Positions 34,236-36,814 of a stretch of 41,706 nucleotides of DNA are shown here, in pieces. The first letter of the stretch is position 1; each line of letters opens with the position of its first letter. The DNA comes from Bacteroidia bacterium (GTDB lineage: Bacteria > Bacteroidota > Bacteroidia > Cytophagales > JAAEPT01): assembly GCA_030431525.1 (NCBI GenBank), contig JAUIJC010000036.1, positions 1 to 41,706 of the forward strand, in the 5' to 3' direction. A program made the translations under genes and the position numbers. The notes below the pieces were generated by a model, which was given only the letters and a program-made list of their open reading frames with translations, made no database searches and was not told the DNA's origin.

Positions 34236-35498
34236 ATGCACGATCTCATTAAGCTTCAAGAGCAAAAGGAAACCGCCGTGTTAGTAGCGGTCGTTACCCA
34301 ACTGCAAAACGAGGATCAGACCCGTGAATACCTCGACGAGTTGGAGTTCCTTGCTCGCACCATCAACATTGAGGCAAAAGCCACCTTCACCCAGAAGCTT
34401 GAAAAGCCCGACAAACGGACCTTTATTGGCAAGGGTAAATTCGAGGAGGTAATCGCCTTTGTGCAGGAGCATGAGATTGACTCTATCATATTCGACGACG
34501 ACCTCACCCCTTCCCAAGTAAGGAACATCGAGAATGAAACCGGCAAAAAGGTCTATGACCGAAGCCTACTCATTTTGGACATCTTCCTGTATCGCGCCAA
34601 AACAGCACAGGCACGTACTCAAGTGGAATTGGCCCGATCAGAATACTTGCTCCCACGACTGACGCGAATGTGGACACCCTTGGAACGTCAGCGAGGTGGT
34701 ACGGGAACGCGTGGTGGTGCAGGTGAGAAAGAAATCGAAACGGACCGCCGCATGGTTCGCAACAAGATTTCTGTCTTAAAGAAGAAGCTGGAAAAAATTG
34801 AGCAGCAGGCCATCACCCAGCGAAAAAGCCGTGGCCAGCAAGTTCGTGTCTCCTTGGTAGGCTACACCAACGTGGGTAAATCCACCTTGATGAATGTCAT
34901 GTCCAAGTCAGAGGTCTTTGCCGAAGATAAGCTCTTCGCCACCGTGGACTCCACAGTGAGAAAAGTAGTGGTTGGTCACCTACCCTTCCTACTAACCGAC
35001 ACGGTTGGATTCATCCGAAAACTTCCCCACAGCTTGGTGGAATGTTTCAAATCCACCTTGGATGAAATTCGCGAGGCTGATGTCCTCCTACATGTCATCG
35101 ACCTTTCACACCCCTTCTTTGAGGATCAACTCACTGTAGTTAAAGAAACCCTCAACGAAATCAAGGCTGGTGAAAAACCAACCATCCTTGTTTTCAACAA
35201 GATTGACACCTACAACAAGCGTAGAGAGGAAATCCGTGCCCAACAAGAGGAACTTGGCGAGGAGGCTGGCGAAGTGCCACCAAGCATTGAGGAACTCCAA
35301 GAAAGTTACCTCGGCAAGGGAGAAAATGCCATTTTCATTTCCGCTGGCGAAAAAGAGAACATTGAGGAATTCAAACAGCTCTTGTTCAAATTCGTTTCAG
35401 AAAAATTCTACACCATTTTCCCTAACTACTTACGCACCGACTACTACGGCCAAGTGAACCAGGAAGAGCAGGATGGGGAGGATTCAGTTAATGATTGA
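34236..35498 (+). CDS. hflX: Ribosome-associated GTPase HflX
   Basis: 420 aa. N-terminal HflX domain (TREYLDELEFLARTINIEAK, RTFIGKGKFEEV, DDDLTPSQVRNIE) with the glycine-rich linker RGGTGTRGGAGEKEIETDRR. The GTPase domain follows: G1 GYTNVGKST, G3 DTVGFIRKLPHSLVE, G4 NKID, and G5-like FISAGE. HflX binds stalled 70S ribosomes and splits them under stress. It starts at ATG 34236, directly after the repeat arm. A tRNA locus with its own promoter follows. Confidence 0.95.
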   Translation: MHDLIKLQEQKETAVLVAVVTQLQNEDQTREYLDELEFLARTINIEAKATFTQKLEKPDKRTFIGKGKFEEVIAFVQEHEIDSIIFDDDLTPSQVRNIENETGKKVYDRSLLILDIFLYRAKTAQARTQVELARSEYLLPRLTRMWTPLERQRGGTGTRGGAGEKEIETDRRMVRNKISVLKKKLEKIEQQAITQRKSRGQQVRVSLVGYTNVGKSTLMNVMSKSEVFAEDKLFATVDSTVRKVVVGHLPFLLTDTVGFIRKLPHSLVECFKSTLDEIREADVLLHVIDLSHPFFEDQLTVVKETLNEIKAGEKPTILVFNKIDTYNKRREEIRAQQEELGEEAGEVPPSIEELQESYLGKGENAIFISAGEKENIEEFKQLLFKFVSEKFYTIFPNYLRTDYYGQVNQEEQDGEDSVND

Positions 35499-35518
35499 AT
35501 TGCAGTAGCAAATACCAC

Positions 35519-35549
35519 TTGAATCATTTTGTGGGATTACGTACTTTTG
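35519..35549 (+). promoter_or_regulatory. Bacteroidota promoter of the tRNA-Arg locus
   Basis: TTG at 35519-35521, 20-base spacer, TACTTTTG at 35542-35549: the same arrangement as the haem operon promoter. The transcript would start near 35556 and pass through the broken tRNA copy, the GIY-YIG ORF and the intact tRNA. No second promoter of this kind is seen in front of the intact tRNA. Confidence 0.65.
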
Positions 35550-35566
35550 CAGTCAATTACCCCAAT

Positions 35567-35599
35567 TAGTTAACTGTTCACCGATAACTGTTAACTGAA
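35567..35599. repeat. TTAACTG-type repeat, single arm
   Basis: TTAACTGTTCACCGATAACT and on to GTTAACTGAAA, placed exactly between the promoter and the broken tRNA copy. Same family as 34134-34234. Confidence 0.65.
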
Positions 35600-35600
35600 A

Positions 35601-35674
35601 GGTCCCATAGTTCAAGGGATACCTGCCTGTCGGCAGACAGGGAATAGGAGTTTCCTAAACTCTAGATCCAGGTT
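35601..35674 (+). pseudogene. Truncated tRNA-Arg(CCT) copy with 20-nt palindromic insert
   Basis: After removal of 35622-35641, this is a 54-nt exact copy of the 5' part of the intact tRNA at 35911: acceptor 5' strand GGTCCCA, D-arm, anticodon arm with TTCCTAA loop, variable bases, and half of the T-arm up to CCAGGTT. It stops inside the T-loop, where the intact gene continues CGAGT, and the ATG of the GIY-YIG ORF begins at the next base. The insert lies at the 3' edge of the D-loop. It cannot make a functional tRNA. Confidence 0.9.
35622..35641. repeat. 20-nt palindrome in the D-loop of the broken tRNA
   Basis: CCTGCCTGTCGGCAGACAGG folds into an 8-bp stem with a 4-base loop; one C-A mismatch on + becomes a T-G wobble on -. 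The same site in the intact copy (between 35931 and 35932) has no insert, so the extra 20 bases are defined exactly. Confidence 0.85.
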
Positions 35675-35920
35675 ATGTTTTTTGTCTATGCTTTACAGAG
35701 TCAAATGGATGGTCGGCTGTATGTCGGATTCACCCAGAACTTGGAAAGGCGTCTAAAAGAGCATAACTCAGGAAAAACAAGATCAACAAAGGGATTCAGA
35801 CCTTGGAAGCTTGTTTATTCCGAATGCTTGCCTACAAGAATTGAAGCAAGGCAAAGAGAGAAATACCTTAAAGGGGGCTCTGGCAAAGAGTTCCTGAAAA
35901 GAAAAATATTGGTCCCATAG
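35675..35920 (+). CDS. GIY-YIG nuclease-domain protein inside the tRNA-Arg locus
   Basis: 81 aa. A single GIY-YIG domain of the YhbQ/UPF0213 type: VYAL (Tyr5), YVG (16-18), catalytic Arg25 in ERRLKEHNSG, and Glu50 in RPWKLVYSE, followed by EARQREKYLKGGSGKEFLKR. All catalytic positions are intact, so it is probably an active DNA nuclease. The ATG directly follows the truncated tRNA copy, and the last codons (LVP-stop) are read from the first bases of the intact tRNA; the TAG stop is tRNA positions 8-10. The layout is that of a selfish insertion carrying its own copy of the tRNA 5' end. Homing activity is inferred. Confidence 0.88.
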   Translation: MFFVYALQSQMDGRLYVGFTQNLERRLKEHNSGKTRSTKGFRPWKLVYSECLPTRIEARQREKYLKGGSGKEFLKRKILVP

Positions 35921-35982
35921 TTCAAGGGATAGAATAGGAGTTTCCTAAACTCTAGATCCAGGTTCGAGTCCTGGTGGGACCA
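35911..35982 (+). tRNA. tRNA-Arg (anticodon CCT)
   Basis: Complete cloverleaf: acceptor GGTCCCA/TGGGACC, D-stem GTTC/GAAT, anticodon stem GGAGT/ACTCT with loop TTCCTAA (anticodon CCT, reads AGG), 4-base variable region, T-stem CCAGG/CCTGG with loop TTCGAGT, discriminator A. CCA is not encoded. Its 5' end overlaps the last ten bases of the GIY-YIG ORF. A terminator follows at 35996. Confidence 0.95.
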
Positions 35983-35995
35983 CTTTTAAAACCTC

Positions 35996-36034
35996 AACCC
36001 TCTAATTCATAGCGATTTAGAGGGTTTTGTTTTT
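35996..36034 (+). terminator. Terminator after tRNA-Arg
   Basis: AACCCTCTAA (35996-36005) and TTAGAGGGTT (36017-36026), a perfect 10-bp stem, then TTGTTTTT. It starts 13 bases after the tRNA. Confidence 0.92.
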
Positions 36035-36814
36035 AGCATGAGTAAGGTTTTGAGTAACTCAGTGTATTTCCAATAACAACTTTATCCCTCCTTGGCTTTT
36101 TCTTAGAATCTGTCTAAATATTCGCAAATAATTTTATAGACAAACCTCTTTACGACAAAAAAATAATACTTCAGCACCAGACCAAATTTTAATAAAAAAA
36201 CAAAAAAGTAGGGAATCGGCGCTCTGTAATCAAAGAGTTATGTCATCACAATCCACCACCATGACGGATTCCCAACGGCTAGCTTTTGGTTTACTCATTG
36301 AAGATGAAAGGAACAAATATACTCTCTTCACCCCATCCTTGAGACACATATTATCTAAAGAAAGTAGGTTTCCAGTAATGAAAACCTCCCATAGAACTCC
36401 CTAACTATAAAACAGCCTATTTCTATTTCATAAAATAGTGTAATAAGTGCCTTTTTTTCCGCATCAAACTAACCACAACACCCCCATACAGACTGAAACC
36501 AGCCAGTTCCACGATCCCAAAATAGACATCACAGATACTTAGACCATCAAGAACAGAAAATAGAGCGTTTATGAAAAGGACTTTAACTGGAACAATAAAA
36601 TTAAGGACAGAAAACAAAACCAATAATTAAATAAATTGAACAAAAAAAACACCAAATACACCCCAAACATGAATCAATTTTTTTTTACAATCTTAGTAAA
36701 AAGTCAAAAACGACTATTAAACAATTTAACCCCAATATCACCACCCCGCACCTAGTTCTTATTAATACCGATTTAAATAAAAACAATCCCTTTAGGATTA
36801 ATCGAAAATTGATG
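36035..36814. other. AT-rich stretch without a convincing gene
   Basis: About 780 bases, clearly AT-richer than the flanking core genes. It contains a possible three-way junction at 36211-36273 (outer GGGAATC/GATTCCC, inner CTCT/AGAG and GTCAT/ATGAC). A 47-aa ORF starts inside it (36261-36404, MTDSQRLAFGLLIEDE...) with no recognised family. A hydrophobic minus-strand frame at 36423-36623 begins at TTG and is not supported. Possibly remnant mobile or regulatory DNA. Confidence 0.5.

Follow-up and report, generated by a model that had tools for sequence, protein, structure and literature searches.

A putative self-restoring, homing-type element with a single small GIY-YIG nuclease gene in bacterial tRNA genes

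A nuclease gene between two copies of tRNA-Arg(CCT)

Since a nuclease gene is found between a broken and a complete copy of one and the same tRNA gene, the question arises whether the gene was inserted there and, if so, how the tRNA was restored. The locus lies on contig JAUIJC010000036.1 of a Bacteroidia bacterium, and the whole stretch of 41,706 nucleotides is referred to here as the window. A first-pass annotation of the window had proposed a minimal self-restoring mobile element that cuts tRNA-Arg in the T-loop after nt 54 and brings its own 5' 54 nt. All features named for the window are on the forward strand. Positions 35601-35674 correspond to nt 1-54 of tRNA-Arg(CCT), with 54/54 nucleotides identical to the intact tRNA. 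This broken copy is split in the D arm: nt 1-21 are located at 35601..35621 and nt 22-54 at 35642..35674, separated by 20 nt (35622..35641) of the sequence CCTGCCTGTCGGCAGACAGG, a near-perfect palindrome. The window contains it a single time, and a match at up to three mismatches did not arise in any of 100 shuffles; other tRNA-Arg elements carry a palindrome of this type at the identical tRNA position. The ATG of an 81-aa ORF (35675..35920) directly abuts nt 54 of the broken copy, and its TAG stop codon (35918-35920) is built from nt 8-10 of the intact, regenerated tRNA-Arg(CCT) at 35911..35983 (ARAGORN; Rfam, 64.4 bits, places the 3' end at 35982). The repeat unit measures 310 bp. The features named in the first-pass annotation, including a promoter motif in front of the broken copy, were all recovered; the palindromic nature of the 20-nt insert is an addition to it.

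Upstream, the nearest neighbor is an ORF for an hflX-like GTPase (34236..35498), presumably HflX. A homologue precedes the element-free tRNA-Arg(CCT) in 10/28 loci of relatives, and the gene is the ancestral upstream neighbor of the window tRNA. The promoter-like site TTG-N20-TACTTTTG at 35519..35549, a sequence motif which we take to be of the Bacteroidota promoter type, is probably the original tRNA promoter. Since a second TAnnTTTG is absent from 35401-36000, the intact tRNA is probably expressed by read-through from this old promoter. An inverted repeat followed by a T-run (35996..36032), read from the sequence, is the probable terminator of the transcript; Rfam gives only a sub-threshold match to a plastid 3'-UTR there. 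Besides the broken copy, the next-closest match to the intact tRNA in its own genome is 78% identical over part of its length (C26:21747-21810).

Two known kinds of element were considered for this arrangement and rejected. For a tRNA island of the integrase type a tyrosine or serine integrase gene is missing from the element, the GIY-YIG ORF being the only one of at least 60 aa that starts between the two tRNA copies. For a group I intron with homing endonuclease, no intron family was matched in Rfam at E up to 1 within 35000-36500, where a single tRNA was reported, and the NCBIfam model of group I intron endonucleases scored 22.5 bits against the window protein at a cut-off of 56.05.

The 81-aa product, which the first-pass annotation had recognized as a GIY-YIG protein, is a bare GIY-YIG domain (PF01541, E = 4.6e-19). 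Y5, Y16, G18, R26, H30 and E62 are invariant in 17/17 aligned proteins, so that the core with the conserved Tyr, Arg and Glu of the superfamily is present. An AlphaFold model (mean pLDDT 92) is nearest in fold to UPF0213 BH0048 and Slx1, and a profile search of PDB sequences agrees in making these the closest solved relatives. Slx1 is a eukaryotic host protein with the partner Slx4, which also appears in the PDB titles, and acts as a branched-DNA nuclease. With this nearest relative, a structure-seeking enzyme is plausible by analogy; at 81 aa and without a DNA-binding extension the nuclease looks small for sequence-specific homing. We know of no link of Slx1 or UPF0213 to tRNA genes. In phage collections, no PHROG family was found at E 0.001, and tblastn returned 11 records at 40–41% identity, ten from Rhizobium phages and one from another phage. 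Phage and plasmid collections contain weak relatives only, so a phage carrier is not indicated.

Recurrence at tRNA genes and common anatomy

Using the window protein alone as query, a scan of named genomes returned 76 loci, all of which were examined. A tRNA gene is located within 300 nt at 73 of these and within 100 nt at 68, and all 68 lie on the strand of the tRNA. For the genome of the window we calculated a chance of about 0.3% that a random place is that near to a tRNA gene. The remaining three loci comprise one at 547 nt from a tRNA and two cut off by a contig end. tRNA-Arg is the site at 50/76 loci, and the GIY-YIG ORF is found at tRNA genes of many isotypes. The named loci include representatives of Bacteroidota, Chlorobiota, Ignavibacteria, Neomarinimicrobiota, WOR-3, Omnitrophota, Elusimicrobia, Endomicrobiales and Parcubacteria-type bacteria. 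A profile search detected a match at E 1e-12 in 178/296 Bacteroidota genomes, including that of the window; the loci taken from it (60 + 30) are the best of the match list, and the profile, built mostly from tRNA-linked proteins, favors tRNA-linked loci. The observation is real, widespread and not due to chance.

The genome of the window contains three other GIY-YIG matches, two of them (E about 2e-4) at loci without a tRNA. The best match (G000:C24:96961-100191) is part of a cluster of tRNA-Met genes, two of them intact and three broken; in the broken ones, TCCGCCAGCTGGCGGA or a variant takes the place of the anticodon region.

The analysis of tRNA linkage was restricted to GIY matches of at least 170 bases, with each place taken once, and to tRNAs on the same strand. 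We distinguished two arrangements: in class A, the window type (n=83 loci), a broken 5' piece is followed by the ORF and the intact tRNA; in class B (n=64 loci) the intact tRNA is followed by a spacer, the ORF and a broken 3' piece. A partial copy of the cognate tRNA on the other side of the ORF was present in 133/145 testable loci (80/82 in class A, 53/63 in class B), after exclusion of two loci cut off by a contig end and of 34 rows without tRNA. When a tRNA of another isotype was chosen at random as a control, a partial copy was seen in 4/145. The copy is missing in 10/63 class B and 2/82 class A loci. A displaced gene fragment on one side and the complete host gene on the other are accordingly the rule. 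Class assignment is uncertain where ARAGORN accepts palindrome-bearing copies as tRNAs, as in at least L012 and L095. The unit of the family is about 300–450 bp long and its only gene is the GIY-YIG nuclease of about 80–100 aa; tandem arrays comprise 2–5 units beside tRNA genes.

Inserts in the broken pieces, often palindromes, could be resolved in 77 cases at 73 loci. For 60/77 at most 5/100 shuffles fold as well, and 17/77 are not clearly palindromic. The position of the inserts depends on class: 35/51 class A inserts follow tRNA nt 21–23 in the D arm, and 23/26 class B inserts are situated within or next to the T arm, at 15–31 nt from the 3' end of the tRNA. Among class A tRNA-Arg loci, eight carry the perfect palindrome CCTGCCTGCCGGCAGGCAGG at the D-arm site, including one of Omnitrophota (L160) and one of WOR-3 (L187). 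The end of the broken copy varies across the family and the palindrome junction is more constant, which makes the previously proposed T-loop cut after nt 54 one possible parse of the window. The ORF runs into the intact tRNA and stops there in 52/83 class A loci, in 22 of these precisely at nt 8; since the other 31/83 ORFs end before the tRNA, the overlap is common, not essential. From this overlap the first-pass annotation had derived a possible brake, by which tRNA processing would destroy the nuclease mRNA.

Two loci show further variants of the broken copy. In Algoriphagus (L143, 2330-2500) a nearly complete tRNA-Arg copy contains, by eye, three palindromes at about nt 9, 21/22 and 55/56, two of which were resolved in the insert analysis. 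At L070, a palindrome-bearing pseudo-tRNA directly precedes the intact tRNA with no ORF between them.

A protein tree was calculated from 181 proteins, 147 of them with a tRNA, over 74 columns; 15/176 branches were starred as firm. tRNA isotype changes 35 times on this tree in comparison to 77–87 times in 200 shuffles, and without the named loci (79 rows) 26 times in comparison to 51–60. The arrangement as class A or B changes 34 times (40–55 in shuffles) and is less conserved than isotype. Judged by these sequence comparisons, protein lineages follow tRNA isotype across phyla. On this tree, where few branches are firm, the window protein is placed among tRNA-Arg(CCT) elements of Bacteroidota, Chlorobiota, Omnitrophota and WOR-3.

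The ratio dN/dS is mostly 0.04–0.25 among pairs with usable dS, many pairs being saturated; exceptions are two pairs that are nearly identical and show a single synonymous difference each (0.47 and 0.73). Summed over 27 pairs of tandem neighbors we counted 39 nonsynonymous versus 81 synonymous differences. The nuclease ORF is under purifying selection, and the neutral decay that would speak against a mobile element was not seen.

No same-strand ARAGORN tRNA lies within 300 nt at 34/181 tree loci, and 16 of these rows form one starred clade with other targets. The other 18 include L026, where a tRNA-Leu is located close by on the opposite strand, L014, where Rfam (run on 12 loci) detected a same-strand tRNA missed by ARAGORN, several loci at contig ends and about ten elsewhere with no tRNA within 300 nt. 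For the clade we considered rRNA as target and rejected it: Rfam reported no structured RNA in 20 loci without ARAGORN tRNA, and the elements are positioned in or beside protein genes instead. Inverted repeats of at least 11 bases, mostly near-perfect and spanning about 280–330 bp, surround the ORF in 13/16 clade rows; none that convinced us was found around the ORF in L024, L074 and L086. Seven elements (L078, L084, L068, L091, L101, L124, L061) of 284–304 bp end in terminal inverted repeats of the type TTCACCCCGTGAGATA..TATCTCACGGGGTAAA. They interrupt tyrosine recombinase genes in L078, L084, L068 and L101 (according to Pfam) and in L091 (according to motif), and in L078, L091 and L101 the insertion is at nearly one motif, LLGH..TTMIYTHV. 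L124 splits a 23S-rRNA-intervening-sequence protein into parts matching profile positions 1-47 and 49-104, both below the Pfam cut-off; no Pfam family matched the flanks of L061. The clade is possibly among the smallest autonomous insertion elements. At L074 and L075 (around 1151-2072) the GIY-YIG ORF is preceded by a duplicated start, and followed by the full start, of a gene that we take to be nucleotide-sugar dehydratase-like, an apparent case of self-restoration in a protein gene.

Sites with and without the element

The first-pass annotation had suggested that relatives lacking the insert should be compared. Among relatives from the same order or family, 52 had tRNA-Arg(CCT)-like matches, of which the best 30 places were taken; we examined 28 tRNA-Arg(CCT) loci in 28 genomes, leaving out L246, which was read as having another anticodon. 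A GIY-YIG ORF was absent within 1.5 kb on each side of the tRNA in 28/28, and no partial tRNA copy was found in 23/28. Relatives without the ORF thus mostly lack the second tRNA copy as well. The other five ORF-free loci hold short 5' tRNA remnants upstream (L227 and L234, the latter with others), three nearby tRNA pieces of 19–22 nt (L239), a perfect 45-nt piece about 1.4 kb away (L223) and a weak antisense match (L242). At L239 and L223 the copies may represent old remnants, or they may have arisen without the gene.

Among the sites compared, the tRNA-Ala(GGC) site of two congeners gives the clearest evidence that the element was inserted and the tRNA restored. G184 carries a unit of 314 bp where the site in G286 is element-free; it is the one class A locus for which a congener provides an empty site. 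The left flank of G184 matches G286 through tRNA nt 22 and ends at the start of the palindrome, and on the right the match resumes at tRNA nt 1. This end of the left match places the junction at the palindrome rather than in the T-loop. At tRNA-Leu(TAA), three units in G034 correspond to a plain tRNA in its congener G049. As for free-standing homing endonucleases, the element is therefore present or absent at a fixed conserved site in related genomes. Some insertions are common to related species of a genus at one place and others share the element only; given the shared places, mobility may be rare.

Two single observations concern these sites. Downstream of the element-free tRNA-Leu(TAA) of G049 we noticed, by eye, a transposase-like ORF of RAYT/Y1 type (L037, about 1900-2300). 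In G019, which also has a plain tRNA-Arg(CCT), a GIY-YIG ORF with an internal stop is accompanied by a partial tRNA-Arg match and no intact tRNA (L016, G019:C3:101584-104814), perhaps a decayed element.

Possible mechanism, rival readings and precedents

Comparison of genomes demonstrates insertion relative to empty sites, a common anatomy, isotype lineages, selection and tandem arrays at the level of sequence. With a probability of roughly 80% we interpret the window element as a self-restoring, homing-type mobile element, one of a large family that inhabits bacterial tRNA genes. The nuclease would cut the unoccupied cognate tRNA gene, in the window tRNA-Arg. Repair from an element-bearing copy would then leave a broken tRNA piece with palindrome, the nuclease ORF and a complete tRNA. 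The host would retain a working tRNA, so that insertion would cost little. In the broken piece and the displaced leader the native site would be gone, which could prevent re-cutting, and tandem units could arise via recombination between repeats. Because the regenerated tRNA keeps the uninterrupted sequence, this leaves the avoidance of self-cutting unexplained. From the first-pass annotation, the self-restoring mobile element gained weight through empty sites, recurrence and selection; the T-loop cut, the 54 nt of its own and the brake through tRNA processing did not. Both window copies being identical, an element bringing its own 54 nt cannot be distinguished from a local duplication.

In a more far-reaching version, which we regard as tentative and less likely than not, a single GIY-YIG domain of some 80 residues would suffice for the mobility of a new class of minimal autonomous elements, about 280–450 bp long. 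Their lineages would have specialized on tRNA isotypes, with the tRNA being restored, or on conserved positions in protein genes, as in the clade with terminal inverted repeats, and the same activity would spread the dispersed GC-rich palindromes as RAYT does with REPs.

Of the rival explanations, a system resembling REP/RAYT survives best, although we consider it doubtful. Here the GIY-YIG protein would primarily mobilize GC-rich palindromes, and the tRNA units would reflect joint travel of palindrome and gene. The likeness to RAYT (TnpA-REP) lies in short palindromes that are dispersed and occur together with a single small gene of nuclease type, and most resolved inserts in the broken copies are palindromic. 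At up to one mismatch CCTGCCTGCCGGCAGGCAGG is present in 41/296 genomes, and 40/41 of these carry the nuclease versus 138/255 of the others (Fisher p = 5e-9, ignoring kinship, in apparently one set of 296 genomes). The junction palindrome of the tRNA-Ala(GGC) site is dispersed in both congeners, with at least 23 further matches in G184 and at least 18 in G286. Against this, those 138 genomes have the nuclease without CCTGCCTGCCGGCAGGCAGG, palindrome sequences differ between lineages, the 17 inserts mentioned above are not clearly palindromic, 20/24 sampled palindrome loci have no tRNA-like sequence beside the palindrome, and many G184 palindromes are inside microsatellite-like stretches. Membership in REP/RAYT itself was rejected, since that system has an HUH Y1 transposase and the gene in the tRNA genes is GIY-YIG.

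Regarding single palindromes, a 32-nt sequence, CCCGCCCGAACGTACCGTCCGGTACGGGCGGG, is dispersed in G184 and G286 (e.g. L285-L298 and L300-L304) in a REPIN-like manner; in G184 it is often paired at about 70–280 bp within microsatellite-like ATCACCGC repeats. For the 20-nt window palindrome, the idea of a genome-wide repeat in its own genome found no support: besides the window site, there are 2 sites at up to two mismatches.

Tandem arrays together with purifying selection on the nuclease would also be expected if the host had domesticated it for raising tRNA gene dosage by tandem amplification, in the way that SegB drives 718-bp tRNA-Tyr/segB repeats according to the accessible part of that report (PMC13096335). 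We consider this unlikely, as what is repeated in the arrays that we read is the nuclease with broken tRNA pieces carrying palindromes, rather than intact tRNAs; possible exceptions are L012 and L095, whose palindrome-bearing copy was accepted as a tRNA by ARAGORN. Even less probable is a system at the RNA level, in which a tRNA-cleaving protein and a decoy pseudo-tRNA serve in stress or defense. A decoy would need isotype specificity, which is observed, and a broken tRNA that shares the transcript, which is probable, but fold and sequence are closest to the DNA structure-specific Slx1 and to UPF0213, the PADLOC match of the window protein is marginal (E 0.004), presence or absence tracks DNA insertion and one clade interrupts protein genes. 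A plain local tRNA duplication beside an unrelated host gene would account for the identical window copies and is very improbable in view of the recurrent cognate copy (133/145), the isotype-tracking lineages and the empty sites.

Returning to the homing-type element, two precedents can be named from the accessible parts of published accounts. For restoration, the best one by analogy is the mORFs of fungal mitochondria, found in atp6 of Allomyces and in atp6, atp9, cox2 and nad3 of Glomus (PMC3630166). In these a gene harbors a homing-endonuclease ORF, the end that was displaced persists as a duplicate and the gene is restored by a replacement end, as in the tRNA elements; most mORFs are LAGLIDADG and one of Glomus is GIY-YIG (PMC3630166). 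They differ in that the genes are mitochondrial and protein-coding and the restored end is foreign and divergent, as far as that account goes, whereas the window element of about 310 bp is in a bacterial chromosomal tRNA gene, has identical copies and carries a palindrome in the broken copy.

For the mechanism, the best experimental precedent, again by analogy, is SegB. The SegB protein is larger than the window nuclease. In the text available to us it is described as a free-standing GIY-YIG enzyme of phages T4 and T6 which cuts inside tRNA genes at the motif RAWTSGAAC and gives rise to tandem tRNA-segB units, the 5' end of the tRNA sharing microhomology with the 3' end of segB (PMC13096335). 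A GIY-YIG nuclease, tRNA linkage and tandem units with a tRNA are thus common to both systems, and by our own comparison the reported motif is complementary to the T-loop sequence GTTCSAWTY. SegB differs as a phage gene for which that text describes no palindrome-bearing broken tRNA copy; the likeness drawn here is one of description.

In the accessible text of the 2006 GIY-YIG survey (PMC1564403) we found no mention of the terms Bacteroid-, Cytophaga- or stand-alone, and its three mentions of tRNA concern other things. No earlier description of GIY-YIG elements in tRNA genes was found in the literature covered, with most subscription papers and preprints lying outside this scope. In the best reading, the tRNA-gene elements resemble mORFs and SegB and are set apart from them by their tiny size, their occurrence in bacteria, their isotype specificity and the REP-like palindromes of the broken copy.

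If the interpretation as a self-restoring element is true, tRNA genes of a major bacterial phylum would be homing sites of a tiny, widespread selfish element that escapes doing harm because it rebuilds its target, which would explain why small GIY-YIG genes and partial copies of tRNAs occur next to tRNA genes in these genomes. Three questions could then be studied in a tractable bacterial system: how a bare GIY-YIG domain locates its site, how a target-restoring element avoids re-cutting and how dispersed bacterial palindromes originate. Should the tentative minimal-autonomous version apply as well, the elements would rank with the smallest autonomous mobile elements known.
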